The notes below the pieces were generated by a model, which searched no databases, had not been told where the DNA came from, and saw nothing but the letters and a program-made list of their open reading frames with translations. Of a DNA stretch of 55,044 nucleotides, positions 27,237 through 37,861 are shown piece after piece; position 1 is the first letter of the stretch, and every line of letters starts with the position of its first letter. A program made the translations under genes and the position numbers. This stretch comes from Actinomycetota bacterium (GTDB lineage Bacteria > Actinomycetota > Actinomycetes > Nanopelagicales > Nanopelagicaceae), in assembly GCA_947372165.1 (NCBI GenBank), contig CANBSP010000009.1, positions 1 through 55,044 on the forward strand, read 5' to 3'.

Positions 27237-27264
27237 AGATGCCCACCGTACCGTTTCGGGGCAC

Positions 27265-27277
27265 TACTATCTCTGCA
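27265..27277 (+). promoter_or_regulatory. near-leaderless -10 box of ugd
   Basis: TACTAT (27265-27270), seven bases, then ATG at 27278. It supports this start over the in-frame ATG at 27239. Confidence 0.5.
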
Positions 27278-28594
27278 ATGGCACTCAAAATCTCTGTGAT
27301 TGGCACCGGATACCTCGGTGCGACTCATGCTGCCTGCATATCGAGCCTCGGCTTTGAGGTTATCGGGATCGATACTGATGCCTCGAAAATTGCGGCGCTT
27401 TCTCAGGGAAAGGTTCCGTTCTACGAGCCGGAGTTGGAAGATCTGCTTTCGCAAGAGATCGCTTCCGGTCGTCTCACCTTTAGTACTGATTTCGAGGCAA
27501 TTAAAGATGCCGATGTCCACTTCATCTGTGTTGGTACCCCGCAGGTCAAAGATGGTTTAGCTGCAGATATGACATATGTTCGAGGAGCGCTCGAAGCGAT
27601 CGCCCCCATCATTAAGGCCGGATCACTTGTTGTTGGTAAATCCACTGTTCCTGTTGGCACTGCTGCGGCACTTCGCACCAGACTTCTTGAGATTAATCCT
27701 AAAACTGATCTCGCCTGGAACCCAGAATTCTTGCGAGAAGGTTTTGCCGTCGATGACACACTTCATCCCAATCGTTTAGTCGTTGGTGTGACAAATGATG
27801 GTGCTGAAAATATTCTCAAAGAGGTCTATGCCAAAAATCTGATAGATGGTGTCCCATGGGTCCGCGCTGATCTACCAACATCCGAACTCGTCAAGGTCGC
27901 AGCAAATTCATTCCTCGCGACAAAGATTTCATTTATCAATGCCATGGCTGAAATCTGCGAAGCAGCTGGTGGAGATGTCACCGTGCTTGCCAAGGCGATC
28001 GGATATGACCCGCGCATTGGAAATAGGTTCCTCCAAGCTGGTATCGGTTTTGGTGGCGGCTGTCTTCCAAAAGATATTCGTGCCTTCATGGCTCGTGCTC
28101 AAGAGTTGGGTGCTCATCAAGCACTTGAATTCTTACGTGAGATCGACTCCATCAACCTGCGGGCCCGCCAACGCGTGATCGATCTGGTTCGCAAAGATTT
28201 ATCAGAAGATCTCGTGGGCAAGAAGGTCGCAGTTTTAGGCGCAGCTTTCAAGCCAGATAGCGATGATGTTCGCGACTCCCCTGCACTTGATATCGCAGTT
28301 CAAATTCACGCAGCGGGTGCCAATGTCGTCGTCCATGATCCAAAGGCAACTGGGCCAGCGGCAAAGCGCTTCCCGGCTCTCACCTTCACCGAAGATCTGA
28401 ATGAATGCCTCAAGGGGGCAGAGATCGTTCTGCATCTGACGGAGTGGAAGATCTATCGCGAACTTGATCCCGTGGCTGTTAAGGGGTTAGTAAAGAGTGC
28501 GATCTTGATCGATGGCCGCAATATGTTAGATCGCAGCGCATGGCAGGCCGCTGGTTGGCACGTTCGCGCTCTTGGCCGAGCAGACTCTCGTTAG
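27278..28594 (+). CDS. ugd: UDP-glucose 6-dehydrogenase
   Basis: 438 aa. It oxidises UDP-glucose to UDP-glucuronate with two NAD+. The Rossmann start is ISVIGTGYLGATHAACIS. The central domain has the catalytic Cys in GFGGGCLPKDIRA at about residue 260, and the C-terminal UDP domain has KVAVLGAAFKPDSDDVRDSP. Length is normal. The start is ATG 27278 (MALKISVIG). UDP-glucuronate would feed surface polysaccharide made by the divergent glycosyltransferase. The SIS gene follows 12 bases later, with a promoter of its own. Confidence 0.95.
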   Translation: MALKISVIGTGYLGATHAACISSLGFEVIGIDTDASKIAALSQGKVPFYEPELEDLLSQEIASGRLTFSTDFEAIKDADVHFICVGTPQVKDGLAADMTYVRGALEAIAPIIKAGSLVVGKSTVPVGTAAALRTRLLEINPKTDLAWNPEFLREGFAVDDTLHPNRLVVGVTNDGAENILKEVYAKNLIDGVPWVRADLPTSELVKVAANSFLATKISFINAMAEICEAAGGDVTVLAKAIGYDPRIGNRFLQAGIGFGGGCLPKDIRAFMARAQELGAHQALEFLREIDSINLRARQRVIDLVRKDLSEDLVGKKVAVLGAAFKPDSDDVRDSPALDIAVQIHAAGANVVVHDPKATGPAAKRFPALTFTEDLNECLKGAEIVLHLTEWKIYRELDPVAVKGLVKSAILIDGRNMLDRSAWQAAGWHVRALGRADSR

Positions 28595-28606
28595 TAGACT
28601 CTACGC
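28595..28606 (+). promoter_or_regulatory. leaderless -10 box of the SIS-domain gene
   Basis: TAGACT (28595-28600), six bases, then ATG at 28607. It begins right after the ugd stop codon and drives the amino-sugar operon. Confidence 0.6.
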
Positions 28607-29629
28607 ATGGCTGGAGAGATCATGCGAAGCGAGATCAATGAGATCCCAGCAGTTTTTGCTCGACTGCTCGCAAGTACTGAAACATTCATCGAGGTAAAGA
28701 GCCTCCTCGCTTCTCGGTCCATTACCTCGGCTCTCATTCTGGCGCGAGGCACTTCAGATAATGCAGCACATTTTCTCAAGTATCTGATTGAGACCCAGAT
28801 GGGCATACCGGTTGGCCTCACCTCGCCTTCGTCGGTAACGATCTATAACACCTCTTTGCACTTTGAGAACGTTCTTGTAGTCGCCATTAGCCAGAGTGGA
28901 CAATCTCCAGATCTGATTGCCTATGCGCGTTCTGCGCAAAGTGCAGGGGCGACACTGATCTCAATCACAAATGATGTGCACTCACCACTTGCCGAAAGCG
29001 CCGATCTCCATATTGCACTCGAAGCCGGACCCGAGCTCGCTGTTGCTGCCACTAAGAGCTACGCTGCCGAACTTCTCGCTTCCTACCTTTTGGTCTGTGC
29101 TTGGAGTGGTCGCGAGAATCGCGCTACCCAATTGCCTGAGATAGCGAAGAGTCTCCTTGCTCTAGACATAAGTGAATCGGTCTCGCGTTGTGAGATCTCA
29201 CGAGAAATTGTCATATTGGGTCGAGGCTTCTCATACCCAAATGCACGCGAAGCTGCCCTCAAGATCCAGGAGACAAATAAGGTCTCAGTACAAGGCCTCT
29301 CCACTGCTGATTACCTTCACGGTCCTATTTCAGCCTTAACCGAGGCGACTCAAGTATTTTTCATCGCACCAGATCACATGCCATCGCACTCGATGAGTGA
29401 AGAGGTAAAGCGGATTCGAACCAACTCGCCATTGATATTCTGGTTCGGAAAGAGTGATTTGGCTATATCCGGTGAGGTAATCGTCGGCGGTGCTACGGCG
29501 CCAGATGAGATCATTGCCTCGATCGCAGATGCGCTATTGATTCAACGGTTTGTCCTCGAACTCTGTGTAAAGAACGGTCTCGATCCTGATAGCCCCGCTG
29601 GCCTCTCTAAAGTTACGTTGACCTATTAA
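28607..29629 (+). CDS. SIS-domain aminosugar isomerase, probable GlcN-6-P deaminase (NagB-II)
   Basis: 340 aa, two SIS domains without the glutaminase domain of GlmS. LILARGTSDNAAHFLKYL and AISQSGQSPDLIAYA form the first sugar-phosphate site; LGRGFSYPNAREAALKIQE and DYLHGPISAL the second. This layout matches the type II glucosamine-6-phosphate deaminases that turn GlcN-6-P into fructose 6-P and ammonia. The next gene encodes NagA, which makes GlcN-6-P, so the role fits. An AgaS-like isomerase is the alternative. nagA starts two bases after its stop. Confidence 0.85.
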   Translation: MAGEIMRSEINEIPAVFARLLASTETFIEVKSLLASRSITSALILARGTSDNAAHFLKYLIETQMGIPVGLTSPSSVTIYNTSLHFENVLVVAISQSGQSPDLIAYARSAQSAGATLISITNDVHSPLAESADLHIALEAGPELAVAATKSYAAELLASYLLVCAWSGRENRATQLPEIAKSLLALDISESVSRCEISREIVILGRGFSYPNAREAALKIQETNKVSVQGLSTADYLHGPISALTEATQVFFIAPDHMPSHSMSEEVKRIRTNSPLIFWFGKSDLAISGEVIVGGATAPDEIIASIADALLIQRFVLELCVKNGLDPDSPAGLSKVTLTY

Positions 29630-29631
29630 GA

Positions 29632-30513
29632 ATGAGCGATGCACACTTCGTAGACCTTCAGATCAATGGTCATGGCGGTATCGATTTTCTCTCAGTCAAA
29701 GACCTCGATGATGTTCGGAAAGCTTCGCGATCGCTATATCAGGCTGGAGTCGCGGCCTACCTGCCTACCCTTATTACTTCTGATCTCGCCAAACTCAAAG
29801 AGGCGGCAGCCATCATCAACGGAGTGAAGGGCGACCAAGGACCAGATGAAGCAAAGATTCTCGGTTTTCATCTCGAAGGACCTTTTATTTCGCATGCAAA
29901 GTGCGGTGTTCATCCACAACACTTCATTGCAGATCCATCACTTGATCTCCTCAAGGAGTACCTCTCCATTGATGATGTAAAGATCGTCACACTTGCTCCA
30001 GAGCTACCAGGCGCACTTGAGCTCATTCGTTATCTCGTTGATCACGGCATAGTGGCTTCCCTGGGTCATTCAGATGCCACACTCGACCAAGCGCATTCTG
30101 GCTTCGATGCCGGGGCGAAGACCGTAACCCATCTTTATAACGCGATGTCGAAATTTCCAGGACTGGCGCAAGCCGCACTCGAACGTGACGATATAACCTT
30201 CCAGATTATTGTCGATGATCTTCATGTCACTCGAGAGAATGTTCTTCAGGCAATCAACGGGCGAGCCGACCGATTTATCTTAACAAATGACACGGTCGCT
30301 GCCGCAGGCATTGGAGATGGCAGATTTTCTTTCGGTGAGATGGAGATCGAAGTAAATGCTGGGCAAGCACGCCGTCTTGACGGCACTCTCGCCGGCGGAG
30401 TCGGAACACTTAGCCGCTCTCTCGAGATATTGGCTGAAATAGGCGTCAATCAATCAGAATCTTGGGCGGCAGCCACAACTCGCCCGCTCGCGCTCATCGG
30501 AGAGAAGCTATGA
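29632..30513 (+). CDS. nagA: N-acetylglucosamine-6-phosphate deacetylase, trimmed form
   Basis: 293 aa against about 380 for typical NagA. The TIM-barrel core is intact: FHLEGPFISHAKCGVHP (metal Glu near 82), ASLGHSDAT, THLYNAMS (metal His residues) and RFILTNDTVAAAG (catalytic Asp). The protein begins at what is normally residue 50 or so (DLQINGHGGIDFLS), and stops at ATTRPLALIGEKL, before the usual C-terminal GxxAPGxxADxV segment. Both halves of the small beta-sandwich domain are therefore missing together. It overlaps the next gene by four bases (ATGA). The role is GlcNAc-6-P to GlcN-6-P plus acetate. Confidence 0.88.
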   Translation: MSDAHFVDLQINGHGGIDFLSVKDLDDVRKASRSLYQAGVAAYLPTLITSDLAKLKEAAAIINGVKGDQGPDEAKILGFHLEGPFISHAKCGVHPQHFIADPSLDLLKEYLSIDDVKIVTLAPELPGALELIRYLVDHGIVASLGHSDATLDQAHSGFDAGAKTVTHLYNAMSKFPGLAQAALERDDITFQIIVDDLHVTRENVLQAINGRADRFILTNDTVAAAGIGDGRFSFGEMEIEVNAGQARRLDGTLAGGVGTLSRSLEILAEIGVNQSESWAAATTRPLALIGEKL

Positions 30514-31868
30514 ATAATGATGAGATCATTTCAGCCCTCAAGAGCACGTTAGGTGCAGATGCGGCTATTGTCACTGATCCGACTATCACGCCTTCCTATT
30601 CACGAGATCAGGCGCCATTTGCAGAAGCGGCCGCACCAATCGCTGTGGTTCTTGCGCGTTCGGTCGAGACGATCTCACAACTTTTGAAATTCGCTCATGA
30701 CAATTCTATTCCTGTTGTTACTCGAGGTGGTGGATCAGGTTTGGCAGGAGGTGCAAATTCCTCTGCGGATTCGATCGTGCTCTCACTCGAGAAGATGAAT
30801 GAAATTCTTGAAATCGATTCCAAAAATATGATTGCACGCGTTCAGGCAGGTGTGATCAATAGTCATTTAGATCAGACAGCTAAAGAACTCGGTCTTGCGT
30901 ATTTACCTGATCCTGCCAGTCGAGAATGGTCCACCATCGGCGGCAATGCTGCAACCAACGCTGGTGGTATGTGTTGTGTGAAATACGGAGTCACCTCGCA
31001 ACATGTACGAGCTATGACCGTTGTCCTTGCGACCGGAGAGATTGTTCATCTTGGAAGTGCAACAAAGAAGGCTGTAACGACATTGGATCTCACTCACCTT
31101 ATAATTGGTTCGGAAGGGACTCTTGGTGTCATCGCAGAGATAACGGTCTCACTTGCGATTCGGCCAGCCACTCCTTCAACTCTCATCGCAACCTTTCCCG
31201 GTATCCAAGAGGCTGCCGCCACCAGCACCGAACTTCTTAAGTACTCCCCTTCAATGCTAGAAATTGTCGACCACACGACGATTCAGGCAGTTGAGGCGTG
31301 GAAACCGCTCGGTTTTGAATCGGCGGGCTCCGTATTGATTATGCAGGTGGATGATGGCTCTGACCTCACCGCTGCCACTGAACTCTGCACCCAGCGTGGG
31401 GCGATAGATGCCTTCTTCTCGAGTGATCCTGCCGATACCGCCGATCTCATTGCCCTCCGAAAACTGGCTTATCCAGCGCTCGAACGGATGGGGATGACGC
31501 TTCTCGATGATGTTGCAGTGCCGCTGACGAAGATTGCAGAGCTCGTTGGACGGGTCGAATCAATCGCAGCAAAGCACCAACTCACTATTGCTGTCTTCGG
31601 ACATGCAGGCGATGGCAACCTTCATCCAACCATTGTCTATCCGCATGGTGATGCGGATGCTGCCGCCAGAGCCGCTGCCGCTTTTACAGAGATTGTGATT
31701 GCAGCTCAAGCACTTGGTGGAACAACAAGCGGTGAGCACGGAATCGGATCAATCAAGCGAAACCTTGCCGGGCAAGAGACCGAACCAAAGGTGCAAGAGT
31801 TGCAGAGATTAATTAAGAGCGTCTTTGATCCTCGAAATATTCTTAATCCTGGAAAGAAATTATCCTAG
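30510..31868 (+). CDS. FAD-linked 2-hydroxyacid (GlcD-type) dehydrogenase, candidate D-lactate dehydrogenase
   Basis: 452 aa. The PCMH FAD-binding domain has PVVTRGGGSGLAGGANSS and GLAYLPDPASREWSTIGGNAATNAGG. The C-terminal substrate cap has FGHAGDGNLHP and TSGEHGIG, the latter near the histidine ligands of the family. This family oxidises D-lactate or glycolate; GlcE/GlcF partners and Fe-S motifs are absent. Start ATG 30510 overlaps the nagA stop, with GGAGAGAAG just upstream. The position in a cell-wall sugar operon suggests D-lactate from MurQ as the substrate (inference). The 3' end overlaps the kinase gene by nine bases. Confidence 0.85.
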   Translation: MNNDEIISALKSTLGADAAIVTDPTITPSYSRDQAPFAEAAAPIAVVLARSVETISQLLKFAHDNSIPVVTRGGGSGLAGGANSSADSIVLSLEKMNEILEIDSKNMIARVQAGVINSHLDQTAKELGLAYLPDPASREWSTIGGNAATNAGGMCCVKYGVTSQHVRAMTVVLATGEIVHLGSATKKAVTTLDLTHLIIGSEGTLGVIAEITVSLAIRPATPSTLIATFPGIQEAAATSTELLKYSPSMLEIVDHTTIQAVEAWKPLGFESAGSVLIMQVDDGSDLTAATELCTQRGAIDAFFSSDPADTADLIALRKLAYPALERMGMTLLDDVAVPLTKIAELVGRVESIAAKHQLTIAVFGHAGDGNLHPTIVYPHGDADAAARAAAAFTEIVIAAQALGGTTSGEHGIGSIKRNLAGQETEPKVQELQRLIKSVFDPRNILNPGKKLS

Positions 31869-32735
31869 TTTTCCAGCAAGCGTAGCTGCCCCGGCAGCGA
31901 TATCAACATTCGCTCGGAGAACTCGACTTCCAAAGATTGATACCAGATCGCTGAAGATTTCCGGGATTTGTTGTGCGATACCGCCGGAGAAGATAATGGG
32001 TAATCCATCTTCTCCGATCACGCGATCTGTGCGGTAAATCAATTCTGCAAGTTCACCTGATGCATGGGCGAGAATCTCAATCGCAGACTGATCACCCTCG
32101 AGCGCGCAATTGCGGACAGTTGGAGTAAGTGCAGCCACGATAGATCGATCCTGGCCATAGATGGCTGTTCGCATCTCACCCCAATTCGAAGCTCCGAGCG
32201 CTTCTGCGATGGCAGTTGAGAGTGCATTACTTGTGCCATTCTCCAAGGTCATCACTGTATGTCGGATCGCTTCCCGGCCTATCCAGTAGCCAGCACCTTC
32301 ATCGCCCAACAAGTAACCCCATCCACCAATACGAATGACTCTTTGATCTTCCGTAATATGCATTGCAACCGAACCGGTGCCGGCATAGAGCAGAATTCCC
32401 TCGCCAGGTTGGAGATGGGCTCGATAAGCAAGCTCGATATCTGACATCAGAGAGACCTTGGCCTTCGGGAAGTACCTGTTAAATAGGGCTTTAAGGGCCT
32501 CTTGGTCGGCTCCTGAATGAGCTAGGCCAGTGAAGCCGGCACAGATTGCTGTTACCTCGTGAGCTGCGGTCTGAGCGGCCATGTCGGCAAGCACCTCATT
32601 AATTCGAATTTCAGATTCTGGTCGATAGATGTGGCCATCCATCGCTTGGGATTTTCCAGAGAAGGTAGCCCCTGTTTCGTCAAGAACCGACCATTTTGTT
32701 GCAGTGGCTCCAGCATCAATTCCAAGAAGAGTCAT
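31860..32735 (-). CDS. BadF/BadG-type N-acetylhexosamine kinase (GlcNAc, possibly MurNAc)
   Basis: 291 aa, ASKHA ATPase fold. LLGIDAGATATKWSVLD is the phosphate-1 loop, LYAGTGSVAMHI the phosphate-2 loop, GWGYLLGDEGAGYWIG a family hallmark, and IIFSGGIAQQIP the adenosine motif. Relatives include N-acetylglucosamine kinase and Clostridium MurK, which phosphorylates both GlcNAc and MurNAc. It ends the minus-strand transporter operon, three bases after the permease stop, and MurQ needs MurNAc-6-P. The dual substrate is therefore plausible but not proven. Confidence 0.87.
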   Translation of the reverse strand: MTLLGIDAGATATKWSVLDETGATFSGKSQAMDGHIYRPESEIRINEVLADMAAQTAAHEVTAICAGFTGLAHSGADQEALKALFNRYFPKAKVSLMSDIELAYRAHLQPGEGILLYAGTGSVAMHITEDQRVIRIGGWGYLLGDEGAGYWIGREAIRHTVMTLENGTSNALSTAIAEALGASNWGEMRTAIYGQDRSIVAALTPTVRNCALEGDQSAIEILAHASGELAELIYRTDRVIGEDGLPIIFSGGIAQQIPEIFSDLVSIFGSRVLRANVDIAAGAATLAGKLG

Positions 32736-32737
32736 CT

Positions 32738-33565
32738 CTACCCCTTCACCGCACCCGCAGTGAGACCTTTAATGAACTGCTCAGAGAGAATCAGATAGAG
32801 GATGATCAATGGAAGTGAGGCGATCATCAAGCCGGCGAAGAGAACGCCCCATTGAGATGCATATTCACCGAAGAAGATTGTGAGCCCTTGCATAATGGTC
32901 TTCTTCTCAGGAGATTGAATGAAGACAAGTGGCAAGAAGAAGTCATTCCAAATGGGAATGGCAGCATAAATTGTCACAATCGCTAAGCCGGGTTTCACAA
33001 GGGGCATCAAGACTTTACGAATCATCTGACCCTCACTTGCACCATCCATGCGTGCGGCATTATCAAGATCTACCGGTAGAGCTCGGAAGAATCCACTCAG
33101 AATAAAGATTGCTGCAGGTAGCGAGCCTGATGCATAAACCAAGATCAAGCCAATTTGGGAATCGAGCAGATGCATCCACTTCAACTGGATAAAGAGCGGA
33201 AGGATCATGAGCTTGGCCGGGATCAGCATCGCAGTTAGAACAAAACCGAGGATGAGATTCTGTCCGCGGAATTGATACCTGCCCAAGACGAATCCTGCTC
33301 CAACGCCAAAGGCCAAGATAAATACGAGTGAACCGCCAGTAATAACGAGAGAGTTCTTTAAGAAATTAGCGAAGTCACCGTTCTGCCAGACCTGTGCAAA
33401 ATTATGCCAATAAGGGTGCTTGGCAAGCTGCATCGGGTTGTTGGCAAAATCTGTGCTTGATCGCAATGAAGAGTTAACCAAGAAGAAGACGGGCAAGAGC
33501 ACTGAAATCGCGTTGAAAATAAGGACCGAGCGCCAGAAGAGCTTTGAACCAATAATCCGGATCAT
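32738..33565 (-). CDS. carbohydrate ABC transporter permease (MalG type)
   Basis: 275 aa, six membrane helices. The conserved EAA loop reads AARMDGASEGQMIRKVLMPLVKPGL near residue 180, where the permease meets the ATPase. The family is the binding-protein-dependent permease type I. The frame runs on upstream to 33592, but ATG 33565 overlaps the stop of the partner permease (ATGA) and has GAGAGG a few bases before, so I use it. The sugar is unknown; the operon context suggests a cell-wall or chitin-derived amino sugar. Confidence 0.9.
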   Translation of the reverse strand: MIRIIGSKLFWRSVLIFNAISVLLPVFFLVNSSLRSSTDFANNPMQLAKHPYWHNFAQVWQNGDFANFLKNSLVITGGSLVFILAFGVGAGFVLGRYQFRGQNLILGFVLTAMLIPAKLMILPLFIQLKWMHLLDSQIGLILVYASGSLPAAIFILSGFFRALPVDLDNAARMDGASEGQMIRKVLMPLVKPGLAIVTIYAAIPIWNDFFLPLVFIQSPEKKTIMQGLTIFFGEYASQWGVLFAGLMIASLPLIILYLILSEQFIKGLTAGAVKG

Positions 33566-34482
33566 GCCTCGACCTCTCTTCCGCGAAGCCATTTAGCACC
33601 GAGCGTCGCACCGACACCTACGATGAGGAAGATGAGAACCCCAAGTGCTGATCCAATACCAATCTGATTGGCGATTGAGTCCACCGATCCAAAGGAGAGT
33701 CGGTAGAACATGAGAGCCAAGGTATCTGTTGCTCCTGCAGGTCCACCACTTGATCCACCCAAGACATAGGGAAGATCGAACCACTCAAATGCACCGATGA
33801 AGGTCAGGATTGTCACAATCGTCATCGATGGTGCAAGCAGTGGGAAGAGAATCTTTCTGAAAATTTGGCCTTCAGATGCGCCATCGATCCGAGCTGCCTC
33901 AACATAATCGGTGCTGATTGCATTGAGCCCGGCTAAGAAAATAATTGTTGGAAATCCAACCCAGCGCCACAGATTGATAAAGACCAGAGTCGGAAGAGCG
34001 GTTGAGGTCTCCCCTAGCCACGAGCGGGCAAATGTATCAAGGTGCAAGGAATGGAAGATGTAATTTACTGGCCCAAAGAAGGGATTGAGAATGATCTGCC
34101 AGGTGTATCCCACAATCACGAGTGAGAAAATAACCGGGAAGAATGCAACTGTTCGGTGGAATCTCTGCCCACGACGAATCTTGAAGAGTGCATAAGCAAG
34201 GAAGATGCCGAGTGAGGTTTGAATAAGAAAGATGCCTACGAAGACCAATAGATTGTGGCGTAAGGCAATCAAGAACTGTTCACGGAATGGGAAGTGAAAG
34301 AGTCGTGAGAAATTTTCAAAACCAGCGAAGCTACCTCTTTGAAAACCATCCCAATGAAAGAAGGCATAGCTCAAGGTGGTAAAGGCAGGAATAGTGGTAA
34401 AGATCAGAATGGTTGCCAAGGCGGGCGTAAGCAGCATGAGAGCCATACGGTTCTGCTGGCGCTTTAATCCTTGCTTTGCCAT
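33562..34482 (-). CDS. carbohydrate ABC transporter permease (MalF type)
   Basis: 306 aa from ATG 34482 (MAKQGLKRQQNRM). Six membrane helices with the first at about 12-34; the EAA loop is AARIDGASEGQIFRKILFPLLAPSM. It pairs with the MalG-type permease downstream. The upstream extension to 34560 runs through the intergenic hairpin and is rejected. No ATP-binding subunit is encoded anywhere in the window; actinobacterial sugar systems of this type often share one ATPase (MsiK-type) encoded elsewhere. Confidence 0.9.
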   Translation of the reverse strand: MAKQGLKRQQNRMALMLLTPALATILIFTTIPAFTTLSYAFFHWDGFQRGSFAGFENFSRLFHFPFREQFLIALRHNLLVFVGIFLIQTSLGIFLAYALFKIRRGQRFHRTVAFFPVIFSLVIVGYTWQIILNPFFGPVNYIFHSLHLDTFARSWLGETSTALPTLVFINLWRWVGFPTIIFLAGLNAISTDYVEAARIDGASEGQIFRKILFPLLAPSMTIVTILTFIGAFEWFDLPYVLGGSSGGPAGATDTLALMFYRLSFGSVDSIANQIGIGSALGVLIFLIVGVGATLGAKWLRGREVEA

Positions 34483-34519
34483 GAGTGAATCTTGCCTCAA
34501 ATCATTACTTGTAGTGAAA

Positions 34520-34565
34520 ATCGCTTGAGGTGTAGCGGCAACGCTGCCTCTACACCTCAAGCGAT
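34520..34565 (-). promoter_or_regulatory. intercistronic hairpin between binding protein and permease genes
   Basis: A perfect 16-base inverted repeat: arms ATCGCTTGAGGTGTAG (34520-34535) and CTACACCTCAAGCGAT (34550-34565), with a 14-base loop that can extend the stem by GGC/GCC after one mismatch. In the minus-strand transcript it is followed by TTTCAC, so at best a weak terminator. Like the malE-malF REP, it probably lets the binding-protein mRNA accumulate above that of the permeases. Confidence 0.85.
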
Positions 34566-34581
34566 CGGGATTACTTACTTA

Positions 34582-35859
34582 TTACTTAGTAAATGGCGCG
34601 TACCAGGTAGCTACGCCATCTTGGATCGATTTGGCCAGTCCTTCAACCGTAAGCGCACCGCTTGCAACCTTTTGGAAACCAGGCTGCATGATAGATGAGC
34701 TAGTTGGAGCTCCGTAGCGGAAGCCAACGAGGGTGAGGAACGGAGTACCCATAGTTGGAATCTTGCGCTGCATTGCTGTGATCGCAGGCTCAGATGAAGA
34801 GATACCAGCAACTGGTGGAATCCAACCGAGTTGATTTGCACCATCTTGCATCAATGGCTTGCTTGCAATGAAGTTCAAGAACTTCATTGCTTCGGCCTTA
34901 TGTGTGGTCTTGGCATTGATTGCATATGCACCATCTGCCCAGTTTGTAACATAGCGAGCTCCGCCAGCAACAGCTGCTGGTGAAGGGAACCAGCCGATAT
35001 TTGCAGAAGCATTCAATGAACGGAAGTACGAGAGTTCGTAGCTACCGCCGATATAGAAGCCAGCCTTACCGTTTGCAAACAATGCACGCTGAGTGTTGTA
35101 GTCGAGACCACTTGCTCCTGCTGGCATGTAAGGGAAGAGCTGAGTTTCAGCCTTGAGTGAGGCGACGAATGCAGGGTCATTGAAGTTTGTTGAACCAGCA
35201 ACAATTGACTTGAAGAATGCATTTCCTCCATAGAAGGCAGGTGAGATAGCTCCCCACATCTGCTCTAAGCCTGGGGCATAACCGGTTCCAACAGCGAGTG
35301 CTGTGTATCCAGCCTTCTTGACCTTATCCATCGCTGAAAGGAGTCCAGCCCAACCTGTTGGGTTAGCGGTGACGCCTGCCTTTGAAAGGATGTCAGGGTT
35401 ATAGAAGACACCGAGGACAGAAGTTGAGTAAGGGACACCGAATTGACGCTTATCTTTATATCCCTGTGCGCCAGCAAGCGTTCCAGGAGCCATCTTCGCA
35501 AGCATTGGAACTTCCTTAGAAGTCAATGGAATGAAGTTACCGGCATCTGAAAGGCTAGACATGCCGCCGTATGCACGGATCTGCATAACATCTGGGCCTT
35601 TTCCAGCAGTAAGAGCTGTCGCGAGGGTCGCGTTGTAGTCAGTTGCTACATAAGGTGTGTATTTAACAGTGATACCTGTTGCCGCTTGGAACTTAGCTGT
35701 TTCAGCTGTCCAAAACGCGGTGTCCTCTGGGCGCCAGCTCCAGAACGAAAGTTCTACAGAAGCGTGAGCAGAAGATGCTGCAACGACAGGAACAGCGATT
35801 GCTGAAACTGCGATCATCGCAGCAACAAGACCACGGATGTGGCGATGTGCTTTCTTCAC
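34582..35859 (-). CDS. extracellular solute-binding protein of a sugar ABC transporter
   Basis: 425 aa. The signal peptide is KKAHRHIRGLVAAMIAVSA, ending in an AxA-type site (SAHAS) rather than a lipobox: no Cys follows, although Gram-positive binding proteins are normally lipoproteins. The mature part is a family 1 (MalE-like) binding protein: VELSFWSWRPEDTAFW, AGKGPDVMQI, YGVPYSTSVLGVFYNP-like segment (GVPYSTSVLGVFYNPDIL). Start GTG 35859 has AAGGAG seven to eight bases upstream, a strong ribosome site. The gene follows directly after the RpiR-type regulator with no gap. Confidence 0.92.
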   Translation of the reverse strand: MKKAHRHIRGLVAAMIAVSAIAVPVVAASSAHASVELSFWSWRPEDTAFWTAETAKFQAATGITVKYTPYVATDYNATLATALTAGKGPDVMQIRAYGGMSSLSDAGNFIPLTSKEVPMLAKMAPGTLAGAQGYKDKRQFGVPYSTSVLGVFYNPDILSKAGVTANPTGWAGLLSAMDKVKKAGYTALAVGTGYAPGLEQMWGAISPAFYGGNAFFKSIVAGSTNFNDPAFVASLKAETQLFPYMPAGASGLDYNTQRALFANGKAGFYIGGSYELSYFRSLNASANIGWFPSPAAVAGGARYVTNWADGAYAINAKTTHKAEAMKFLNFIASKPLMQDGANQLGWIPPVAGISSSEPAITAMQRKIPTMGTPFLTLVGFRYGAPTSSSIMQPGFQKVASGALTVEGLAKSIQDGVATWYAPFTK

Positions 35860-36825
35860 TTATTTTTCTCCTTGCTTGAGGGATGTGCGGGATTTGGTAG
35901 ATGATTGACCCTTCTCAGAATCACTCACCTTCTTTCCAGAACGACTGGATATCGCCGCCCTAGATTCTTCTAGAGCAGATTTGGTACCACTCCAGCTTCT
36001 CTGTGCCAATGCAACACAGAGACAATCAACCACCGTTAACTGTGCGATACGACTCGCAGTTGCTCCGCTTCGGAAGGTGGTTTCCCGAGCAGATGTAAAG
36101 AGGACAAGGTTGGCGATTGAGGCAGCGGGGCTGCGTAGACCATTCGTAATAAGAATGACCGTGACGCCGCGGGCTTTAAATTCATTCATCACGTCAACTA
36201 CATCAAGTGTTGTTCCACTATGGCTGATAGCGACAAGCACATCGCCCTTCTTTAAGAGCGAGATCGAGGTGAGGGCGGTATGAGCATCACGCCAAGCAAC
36301 TGAGGCTCTGCCAAGTCGATTCAATTTAAGGGCAAGATCCATCGCTACATAACCACTTGATGCAAGACCAAAGGTAGCAATAGTTGGGGCCTTCTCCCAG
36401 GCATCAACGACGCGAGTAAAGATCTCTGGATTTAATCTTTCAGCTGTTGTCGCAATCGCAAGAGCATCTGCTGCTGCAATTTTCCGGATGACATCAGCTG
36501 GGCCATCTTCCATCGTGATACCGCCATCGAGATCACGCATCGTGGTATCGAATGTATTGAGGCGGCTAACTTCTCCAACGAGTGCCATTCGAAATTCAGG
36601 ATAACCCTTGTAACCAATTGCTTTTGAGAAGCGCACAACCGAAGAGACTGATGTATCGCAGTGGGCAGCGATCTGAGAGATATTCATCTTCGCGCAGGAG
36701 GCTGGGTCATCAATAACCGCATGAGCAATAAGTAGCTCGGAGGCGTGGAATGAGTCGAGTGAGTTACGGATCTCTCCGAGGAGATCTGAAGCAGGAGTGG
36801 CTTGGGCAGACGAGAGAGATTTCAT
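35860..36825 (-). CDS. MurR/RpiR-family transcriptional regulator
   Basis: 321 aa. The N-terminal HTH_6 domain (INSISQ-like core ISQIAAHCDTSVSSVVRFSKAIGY, the family's recognition helix) is followed by a SIS domain (GLASSGYVAMDLALKLNRLGR, AISHSGTTLDVVDVM) that binds a sugar phosphate, and a charged tail. It very likely controls the amino-sugar operon. The frame opens at GTG 36831, but GAGGAG lies directly against that codon, leaving no spacing, and five bases before ATG 36825, so ATG 36825 is preferred. A palindrome over the promoter suggests autoregulation. Its 3' end abuts the binding-protein gene. Confidence 0.9.
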   Translation of the reverse strand: MKSLSSAQATPASDLLGEIRNSLDSFHASELLIAHAVIDDPASCAKMNISQIAAHCDTSVSSVVRFSKAIGYKGYPEFRMALVGEVSRLNTFDTTMRDLDGGITMEDGPADVIRKIAAADALAIATTAERLNPEIFTRVVDAWEKAPTIATFGLASSGYVAMDLALKLNRLGRASVAWRDAHTALTSISLLKKGDVLVAISHSGTTLDVVDVMNEFKARGVTVILITNGLRSPAASIANLVLFTSARETTFRSGATASRIAQLTVVDCLCVALAQRSWSGTKSALEESRAAISSRSGKKVSDSEKGQSSTKSRTSLKQGEK

Positions 36826-36853
36826 TTCCACTCCTCTCGGCGAAAAACATTTT

Positions 36854-36871
36854 CAGGTCATCGTTGACCTG
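36854..36871. promoter_or_regulatory. candidate MurR/RpiR operator
   Basis: CAGGTCA (36854-36860) and TGACCTG (36865-36871) form a perfect 7-base inverted repeat with a 4-base spacer, flanked by TTTT and AAAA runs. It lies just downstream of the -10 box, so a bound repressor would block the start of transcription. Confidence 0.65.
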
Positions 36872-36875
36872 ATGA

Positions 36876-36904
36876 AAATTATCGCCTCATAGAGTGGGGG
36901 TCAA
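36876..36904 (-). promoter_or_regulatory. sigma-70-type promoter of the regulator-transporter operon
   Basis: On the minus strand TTGACC (36899-36904) and TAATTT (36876-36881) are separated by 17 bases, a near-consensus pair. It precedes a leadered gene with a good ribosome site, unlike the leaderless genes nearby. Confidence 0.6.
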
Positions 36905-36952
36905 GCACCAACAGGTAACGATTTCGTGATGGTTTTGCCAGCTTTACCAGGA

Positions 36953-37861
36953 TTAGCCCTGATCCAGCGCCGCTCTAATGTGGTTTGAGGCTGTTTTCAA
37001 ACGGCTTTCTGCCTCTGCAACATCGACATGGAGCAGAATCATCAAGATCGCGACCTTTACCCGATGATCTGACTTCTCCAACGCTGCCTGAGCGCTCGCC
37101 CAATCAGCCCCGGTGGCATTCTGAATGATGCGCACCGCCCGATCCTTCAACTTGGCATTGGTGATCTGAAGATCGACCATCAAGTTACCAAAAGTCTTAC
37201 CAAGTCTGATCATGGTGATCGTCGAAATCATATTGAGAACTAACTTCTGTGCTGTACCTGACTTCAATCGGGTCGACCCGGCGAGGAGTTCGGGGCCGGT
37301 ATCCACGGCGATCGCATGCGTTGCCACTTTAGTGATTTCCGAGCCAGGGTTGCTGGTGAGGCCAACCGTGAGTGCCCCGATCTCATTTCCATATTTGAGT
37401 GCGCTAATCACGTAGGGAGTGCGACCACTAGCGGCGATGCCGAGAATGACATCCTTGGAACTCGCACTGATTCTTTTGAGCTCGAGGATGCTCGCTTCTT
37501 CATTATCTTCCGCAGCTTCGACCGCCTGGCGCAGTGCAACTTCCCCACCAGCGATAAATGCGATGACTTCAGTGGGCGCGACAGAGAAGGTGGGGCCGAG
37601 TTCTGCTGCATCAAGTACGCCAAGTCGACCTGACGTTCCGGCGCCGAGGTAGATCAGACGACCACCTTGCAGCATGCGATCAATAATTCCATCGATAACA
37701 ACTTTGATTGTTGGCAGTACCAATGCAACTGCTTTGGGGACTTCTGTATCGCTCTCATTCATTACCTGAAGGAGCTCGCCCACGGTCATAACATCAAGAA
37801 GTGCAAACTTTTCATCAACCTGCTCGGTACGCAGGGCAGCAAGTTCCTCTTTAGAGGTCAT
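36953..37861 (-). CDS. murQ: N-acetylmuramic acid 6-phosphate etherase
   Basis: 302 aa. MurQ removes D-lactate from MurNAc-6-P to give GlcNAc-6-P, the key step of cell-wall sugar recycling. The SIS-fold signature is IYLGAGTSGRLGVLDAAELGPTF in two parts (IYLGAGTSGRLGVLDAAE then PTFS), with VIAFIAGGEVAL, ILGIAASGRTPYVI and a metal-free GTAQKLVLNM helix. Length is standard. The start ATG 37861 has TATTGT six bases upstream. It precedes the regulator on the same strand, separated by 127 bases. Confidence 0.95.
   Translation of the reverse strand: MTSKEELAALRTEQVDEKFALLDVMTVGELLQVMNESDTEVPKAVALVLPTIKVVIDGIIDRMLQGGRLIYLGAGTSGRLGVLDAAELGPTFSVAPTEVIAFIAGGEVALRQAVEAAEDNEEASILELKRISASSKDVILGIAASGRTPYVISALKYGNEIGALTVGLTSNPGSEITKVATHAIAVDTGPELLAGSTRLKSGTAQKLVLNMISTITMIRLGKTFGNLMVDLQITNAKLKDRAVRIIQNATGADWASAQAALEKSDHRVKVAILMILLHVDVAEAESRLKTASNHIRAALDQG

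Follow-up and report, generated by a model that had tools for sequence, protein, structure and literature searches.

A gene for a putative D-lactate dehydrogenase beside a probable amino-sugar catabolic cluster in a streamlined actinobacterium

Breakdown of N-acetylmuramic acid (MurNAc) through the etherase MurQ yields D-lactate, and the fate of this product is rarely treated together with the pathway. The stretch of DNA analyzed here (hereafter the window; 55,044 nucleotides, contig C9 of a 1.36-Mb, 94% complete genome of the actinobacterial family Nanopelagicaceae) raises the question of where that lactate goes, with genes for MurQ, a MurR/RpiR-type regulator, a sugar transporter and a BadF-type kinase lying next to a gene for a flavin adenine dinucleotide (FAD)-dependent 2-hydroxyacid dehydrogenase, hereafter the FAD gene. 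Our reading, to which we assign a probability of about 0.68, is that the locus would be a module for the uptake and catabolism of free cell-wall amino sugars in which the FAD enzyme recovers D-lactate. Gene families, gene order, catalytic residues and a recurrent adjacency in relatives are directly established; the substrates, the electron acceptor and the regulation are what we infer. If this is true, small cells would obtain pyruvate and electrons from each MurNAc.

In the proposed pathway, the binding protein and two permeases would import MurNAc and/or N-acetylglucosamine (GlcNAc), presumably with an ATPase encoded elsewhere, and the BadF kinase would convert the imported sugar to its 6-phosphate. 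MurQ would then cleave MurNAc 6-phosphate (MurNAc-6-P) to GlcNAc-6-P and D-lactate, a core-only deacetylase (NagA) and a deaminase with two SIS domains would carry GlcNAc-6-P to fructose-6-P, and the FAD protein would oxidize D-lactate to pyruvate, passing electrons probably to quinone. MurR may sense a sugar of the pathway. Throughout, compared genomes are labeled by G-numbers, where G000 is the genome of the window and G065 a near twin (FAD protein 99% identical); given the 94% completeness of G000, absences were judged jointly in the two.

Gene content and predicted sugar substrates

Ten open reading frames (ORFs) occupy positions 27239 to 37861, all intact, and the nine genes that an earlier note on this DNA had named were recovered at their positions with the families it had given them. 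The same note described two head-to-head operons, an arrangement that is ruled out: the plus arm (28607-31868) and the minus arm (37861-31860) converge tail to tail, the 3′ end of the FAD gene (31868) overlapping that of the kinase gene on the opposite strand (31860) by 9 bp. Because the arms are convergent, the FAD gene and murQ do not belong to one operon in the window. Only two of the ten proteins, MurQ and a nucleotide-sugar dehydrogenase, passed a curated NCBIfam cut-off. MurQ exceeded both of its own (302 for TIGR00274 and 168 for NF003915), and the chemistry of this enzyme, from MurNAc-6-P to GlcNAc-6-P and D-lactate, has been described (PMC6165865).

The steps below MurQ are represented by two less typical proteins. 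NagA is only 293 aa long and falls under the TIGR00221 cut-off of 225.65 bits, covering profile positions 57-342 of 380 and residues 50-348 of the 382 of E. coli NagA, so that both ends outside the core are missing. Nine of 11 checked E. coli positions, which we take to be metal and catalytic residues, are identical, the exceptions being 227 (a gap) and 307 (Ala). No other TIGR00221 match was found in G000, and G003, G043 and G114 likewise have short NagA frames, of 301-314 aa. We rejected the possibility of a broken gene on the grounds that there is no internal stop, the catalytic residues are kept and relatives have short frames too. The double-SIS protein is likely a glucosamine-6-phosphate deaminase of the NagB-II/GlmS-isomerase type, a putative assignment.

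Some kinases of the BadF type are known to act on GlcNAc and MurNAc, Clostridium MurK being one of them. The best match of the window's kinase in the PDB was 8zo3, a MurNAc/GlcNAc kinase (76.5 bits), and its score against the NagK model NF046058 was 85.6 bits, below the cut-off of 370; it is likely a MurNAc/GlcNAc kinase, putatively named from these similarities. According to the T. forsythia MurK structure paper, MurNAc binding is not identifiable by sequence analysis (PMC10465942). The substrate of the window's kinase is not decidable from sequence. The binding protein also stayed below the cut-offs of its models (TIGR03850, 44.1 bits; NgcE, 31.1 bits), and its PDB matches were mixed sugar binders that included binders of chitin oligosaccharides. 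The module contains no ATP-binding cassette (ABC) ATPase. Neither an AnmK match nor a match to GH3 (NagZ) was found in G000 or G065, GH3 being present in just 2 of 25 genomes searched. Since the window lacks the muropeptide genes seen in relatives (described below) and neither genome has an AnmK or GH3 match, the module should handle free MurNAc and GlcNAc and not muropeptides. The label "self-contained" in the earlier note does not hold, given these absences, the missing ATPase and a NagA cut to its core.

Alternatively, the module may serve mainly GlcNAc or chito-oligosaccharides, with MurQ recycling only the cell's own wall and the FAD enzyme clearing the recycled D-lactate. The chitin-oligosaccharide binders among the matches of the binding protein and its NgcE match (below cut-off) would fit this, as would the resemblance of the kinase to GlcNAc kinases too and the 121 bp that set murQ off from murR. 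However, AnmK is the usual entry of recycled anhydro-MurNAc, and its match is absent from G000 and G065. Moreover, murQ, murR, the binding-protein gene, both permease genes and the kinase gene are contiguous in 10 of the 25 other murQ genomes and, but for one extra ORF, in G128 as well. We consider this alternative improbable but deserving of some weight.

The FAD-dependent enzyme

We return to the reading in which the FAD enzyme recovers D-lactate from imported MurNAc. Its protein has the domains FAD_binding_4 (PF01565, 143.6 bits) and FAD-oxidase_C (PF02913, 177.1 bits), both above cut-off. In a phmmer search of the PDB the first match was 9qgz (E 4e-104), followed by LctD, mouse LDHD, 3pm9 and human D2HGDH. 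In the PDB 9qgz is entered as "Glycolate oxidase", yet the protein has been assayed as a D-lactate dehydrogenase (PdG-D-LDH), with relative activities of 100 on D-lactate, 33 on L-lactate and at most 4.2 on other donors (PMC12724367); glycolate is not among the donors in Table 1 of that paper. It was reoxidized fastest by 2,6-dichlorophenolindophenol (DCIP), then by quinones and then by oxygen (PMC12724367), and the term "oxidase" that the earlier note had used is therefore better replaced by dehydrogenase. The predicted fold (mean predicted local distance difference test score 81, from a model built from 11 sequences) had chains of PdG-D-LDH as its first 12 structure matches, with template modeling scores of 0.84-0.89 (0.89 for 9qit_B).

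We aligned the FAD protein with its closest relatives in the same family, which form a clade of 18 rows with support of 100/100; a 19th member, from G114, was omitted from alignment and tree as its gene is in two pieces. All 18 rows retain the catalytic and metal residues R323, H371, H378, E415 and H416 (PdG-D-LDH numbers). Identity of the window's protein is 41% to PdG-D-LDH, 32% to E. coli GlcD and 27% to 3pm9. The clade nests in a 45-row group (95/97) that also contains PdG-D-LDH; E. coli GlcD, LctD, mouse LDHD and 3pm9 fall outside it, on long branches that leave their own placement unsure. Within G000 the FAD gene is the single match to PF02913 and the single match to PF01565; no further D-lactate dehydrogenase with this fold was found there, in a search that left NAD-dependent and other types aside. 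In addition to its FAD gene, G065 has one 338-aa PF01565 match, which from its size would be MurB. A MurB-sized match is missing from G000, unlike its near twin, most likely because of an assembly gap.

Taken together, the closest characterized relative, the active-site residues, the sole match in the genome and the adjacency to mur genes described below make a putative D-lactate dehydrogenase the best-supported reading of this gene. The earlier note had proposed the same function, and that proposal stands on these four points, with the qualification that the link to murQ is not obligate. A sink for D-lactate is also sensible in view of the transient build-up of lactate in engineered C. glutamicum fed MurNAc (PMC6165865). 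The substrate pocket is less uniform, and here the first points against our reading arise. In the methyl-pocket columns the window's protein has the Tyr, Leu and Phe, with Thr for Leu380 and Ser for Thr73; overall its pocket differs from that of PdG-D-LDH at E31Q, T73S, T338L, I369F and L380T. Across the clade, the replacements are Q or H for E31, S for T73, L or I for T338, F for I369 and T for L380. D-lactate is the likely substrate as judged from homology; given these differences, and given that GlcD acts on D-lactate too, a preference for it over glycolate would be putative.

Alternatively, the FAD enzyme may be a general dehydrogenase for glycolate, D-lactate and similar short 2-hydroxyacids, lying beside the mur genes by chance and serving environmental glycolate or D-lactate. 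Its best NCBIfam match is indeed TIGR00387 (glcD), but at 361.8 bits it is far below the cut-off of 567.9, and in the window its neighbors are nagA and the kinase gene rather than glcE or glcF. E. coli GlcD, whose pocket is narrowed by Tyr351, is reported to oxidize D-lactate as well as glycolate, with weaker binding of D-lactate (PMC10589216), which places the two functions close to each other. This Tyr351 signature is absent from all 18 rows, which have Thr or Ala. A clade member that fits the general role better is that of G078 (locus L071, 8290-10532), whose gene overlaps a gluconolactonase gene near one for an L-arabinonate-type dehydratase, and which has Phe at the position of Tyr327, the clade's pocket Tyr, as E. 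coli GlcD does. The distribution among relatives cuts both ways: eight of the 19 clade genomes have no murQ match, but wherever both genes occur (11 of 11 genomes) the FAD gene adjoins a gene of the mur island. This explanation also appears improbable to us, and a shade more so than a module for GlcNAc. A role as D-2-hydroxyglutarate dehydrogenase in serine synthesis is very improbable, since membership of the same subfamily, with a catalytic site conserved among its members (PMC7801405), is set against 27% identity to 3pm9 versus 41% to PdG-D-LDH and against the residues in the columns of Lys401 and Asn443, which hold the distal C5 carboxylate of the substrate in D2HGDH (PMC7801405). All 18 rows have Leu (one has Ile) in the first of these columns and Thr in the second; the columns were located by means of 3pm9, where they are Lys and Asn, and not by aligning human D2HGDH itself.

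Linkage of the FAD gene and murQ among relatives

We assessed the association of the two genes in a sample of 151 genomes of the family, counting FAD relatives at E 1e-3 or better. There were 109 genomes with a match to the FAD protein, and 19 of them have a member of the window's clade (59-100% identity; the two pieces in G114 are 63 and 54% identical). For murQ, 94 genomes matched at E 1e-3; 26 were kept (E 4.4e-42 or better, the weakest being G128, cut by a contig end) and 68 were dropped, with at most 31 bits and mostly in 600-aa frames. Eleven genomes had both the FAD clade and murQ, 8 the FAD clade only, 15 murQ only and 117 neither (Fisher p-value 1.6e-5, uncorrected for kinship). The 11 are spread over four genera, with seven in one, and 9 of them hold no further FAD relative. 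When FAD relatives of any clade were considered, they were present in 25 of the 26 murQ genomes versus 84 of the 125 without murQ (p-value 0.0011, again uncorrected for kinship).

In all 11 genomes with both, the gene downstream of the FAD gene belonged to the island and was encoded on the opposite strand; it was the kinase gene in six (G000, G007, G098, G086, G029, G114) and a PBP4B-like gene in five (G109, G017, G052, G128, G062). The murQ gene was on the same contig in eight, at gaps of 5.0, 5.0, 5.0, 5.1, 10.0, 10.2, 14.0 and 14.7 kb, and on a different one in G007, G062 and G114. Beyond murQ, murR, the binding-protein gene, the permease genes and the kinase gene, islands in relatives are larger and variable in order. 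Their extra genes can encode an oligopeptide-type ABC transporter, AnmK, a GNAT protein, an L-Ala-D/L-Glu epimerase-like protein and a PBP4B-like protein (families assigned from the copies in G109). At locus L070 (4046-18681, in G109) and similar loci, the opp-type transporter, AnmK, epimerase-like and PBP4B-like genes accompany murQ. These larger islands look like muropeptide-scavenging systems, judging by their gene families; the window lacks that part.

Several observations weigh against a dedicated link. The FAD gene is convergent with its adjoining island gene in 11 of 11 genomes and is thus not co-transcribed with it, and no shared MurR operator was found, so that the FAD gene is not tied to the regulon in that way. 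The FAD clade is missing from 15 of the 26 murQ genomes, and in 8 of the 19 FAD-clade genomes no murQ match was found, which suggests that the enzyme is also useful without MurNAc. Four-base coupling to nagA, to which the earlier note had given weight, is real as an ATGA that holds both the stop codon of nagA and the start codon of the FAD gene (30510-30513), but of the clade loci read, only those of G000 and G065 show it; in G007 there is no nagA between the SIS and FAD genes, and the nagA of G109 runs in the opposite direction. We therefore do not take the overlap as proof of function. The convergent orientation and the unconserved overlap make our reading, and the wider scenario that closes this section, slightly weaker and a general glycolate dehydrogenase slightly more plausible.

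Among the eight FAD-only genomes, the contigs of G065 and G127 break off on the side of the island. The remaining six (G028, G085, G073, G091, G121 and G078) showed no homologues of the window's SIS, nagA, kinase, murR and murQ genes within 20 kb. In G028, G085, G073 (with one extra ORF) and G091, each a single contig, the FAD gene lies between radA and a Clp-type ATPase gene, and nagA matches reach at most 25.5 bits and AnmK matches less than 20 bits or none, which also counts against a MurNAc role there. In G121 an endonuclease III-like gene precedes the FAD gene and the Clp gene is three ORFs on. As an observation in its own right, loci L065-L068 and L072 have the FAD gene near radA or endonuclease III-like and Clp genes in murQ-less genomes, at what is elsewhere a site of mur clusters: G010, G025, G037 and G048 have a mur cluster there, bounded by this Clp-type gene at one end and the radA side at the other. 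In the FAD tree, G109 is the sister of G121 (100/99); it has SIS, nagA, FAD, PBP4B-like, AnmK, opp, murR and murQ genes at that site, and in the stretch examined no kinase or sugar transporter was seen. We read the murQ-less loci as cases where the island was lost and the FAD gene kept, gain being the alternative. Of the co-occurrence in relatives that the earlier note had proposed to check, 11 genomes with both genes, the FAD gene adjoining an island gene in every one, speak in favor; the refuting case that it had named, the FAD gene without murQ, is partly borne out by the eight FAD genomes without a murQ match. The link between the FAD gene and the mur genes is strong within one clade and not obligate.

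Outside the family, linkage was rarely seen. In a sample of 396 genomes of the phylum (FAD relative at E 1e-100, murQ at E 1e-30; scored on the best 4-5 candidates per genome, so that paralogues may be missed), 45 hold an FAD relative, 49 murQ and 20 both, and the two were within 20 kb in only 2 of the 20, the window's genome and G439. The remaining 18 are a further point against a general association, with the genes far apart on one contig in six and on different contigs in 12. Likewise, murQ was in the flank of none of 80 named FAD relatives (the best 80 among the matches listed, 41-47% identity, with flanks that reach at most 10 kb per side and are often shorter); in seven of these 80 the flank contains nagA, oppositely oriented, and these seven bear names of Pseudonocardiales genera. 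The FAD-murQ linkage consequently marks the window's clade and not the whole enzyme family. G439, the sole genome of another family in the sample, has on one strand genes for the FAD protein, a BadF kinase, a binding protein, two permeases, an ORF with no family match, murQ, anmK, nagA and a PBP4B-like protein. Its FAD protein is 44% identical to the window's, with the same residues in pocket columns 73, 327, 336, 338, 369 and 380 and a different one in column 31. This arrangement speaks for our reading, but a single clade of its FAD protein with the window's was not rejected (approximately unbiased test, p-value 0.434), and G439 is therefore not counted as an independent case of recruitment.

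A wider and more tentative scenario, to which we would give slightly less than an even chance, is that MurNAc catabolism in a lineage of streamlined actinobacteria is accompanied by a dedicated quinone-linked D-lactate dehydrogenase, that the island decays piecewise, and that in one genus the enzyme outlives the island at the radA-clp site as a free-standing scavenger of D-lactate or glycolate.

Locus features and comparison with known systems

Table 1. Features of the locus, in positions of the window.
Feature	Position	Strand	Evidence
Nucleotide-sugar (UDP-glucose type) dehydrogenase (ugd)	27239..28594	+	TIGR03026 422 bits, scanned from 27281
Double-SIS protein	28607..29629	+	NF046059 NagB-II 218 bits (below cut-off 430); PF01380 in two stretches
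Compact NagA, GlcNAc-6-P deacetylase, catalytic core only	29632..30513	+	TIGR00221 207.1 bits
FAD-dependent 2-hydroxyacid dehydrogenase	30510..31868	+	PF01565 and PF02913; best PDB match 9qgz
BadF-type sugar kinase	31860..32735	-	PF01869 102.9 bits
ABC sugar permease, MalG type	32738..33592	-	PF00528 71.1 bits
ABC sugar permease, MalF type (permF)	33562..34482	-	PF00528 72.5 bits on longer ORF (to 34560)
Sugar-binding protein, family 1	34582..35859	-	PF01547 119.2 bits
MurR/RpiR-type regulator	35860..36831	-	PF01418 and PF01380; NF008458 162.5 bits (below cut-off 378)
Perfect 8+8 inverted repeat TCAGGTCA-N4-TGACCTGA	36853..36872		Between murQ and murR
MurQ, MurNAc-6-phosphate etherase	36953..37861	-	TIGR00274 352.3 bits; NF003915 391.7 bits

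The ugd gene may be the first gene of the plus arm, co-transcribed with it: its spacing to the following SIS gene is 12 bp in the window and 9 bp in G007, and it is the SIS-side neighbor in G007 and G065 as well. At the other end, murQ is 52 bp from purE. The repeat at 36853..36872 may be a regulator site or a terminator-like hairpin, and a scan scored it as terminator-like. Even with up to 3 mismatches allowed, the window has no further copies of its pattern, and the palindromes listed for the regions upstream of murR or murQ in relatives do not include it; a shuffle count is not a fair test here, as the pattern was taken from that very site. A promoter scan gave 5 sites, fewer than in shuffles (10.7), and was not used. 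The start of permF is more likely at 34482, an in-frame ATG, than at 34560. An inverted repeat with 10-base arms (34525-34560) lies between the binding-protein gene and this likely start, where it would perhaps form a hairpin favoring expression of the binding protein.

The pathway in the window is thus of a known kind; the gene added alongside is uncommon. In a literature search that left most subscription journals outside, no D-lactate dehydrogenase gene was found described in a murQ cluster (titles and abstract openings), and murQ and glcD were not found together as whole words in one paper. MurNAc recycling in mycobacteria is the subject of PMC13041923. The named relatives of the FAD protein are mostly actinobacterial (best 80 among the matches listed); together with the small genomes, this would fit a freshwater actinobacterium of the Nanopelagicales type. 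There is reason to re-examine "glycolate oxidase" names in these actinobacterial FAD enzymes, as the one assayed member found prefers D-lactate.

Like the window, the E. coli MurNAc pathway has an RpiR-type regulator. The two also share the MurQ etherase and the chemistry of NagA, but in place of the phosphotransferase system of the E. coli-type pathway (MurP, MurQ, NagA, NagB; PMC6165865) the window has ABC uptake and a BadF kinase, and it has a SIS deaminase for NagB, a core-only NagA and a putative lactate enzyme beside the cluster. Its kinase belongs to the same BadF family as the MurK/NagK-type kinases, and the closest solved chain is named a MurNAc/GlcNAc kinase, although the similarity is weak (76.5 bits). 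With E. coli GlcD, a component of GlcDEF, the FAD protein shares the subfamily and the catalytic residues, but it is only 32% identical, has no GlcE or GlcF neighbors and lacks Tyr351. Compared with PdG-D-LDH (9qgz/9qit, Nocardiopsis-like), several of its pocket residues differ, whereas the two-domain architecture, 41% of positions, the catalytic residues and Tyr327 are common to both.

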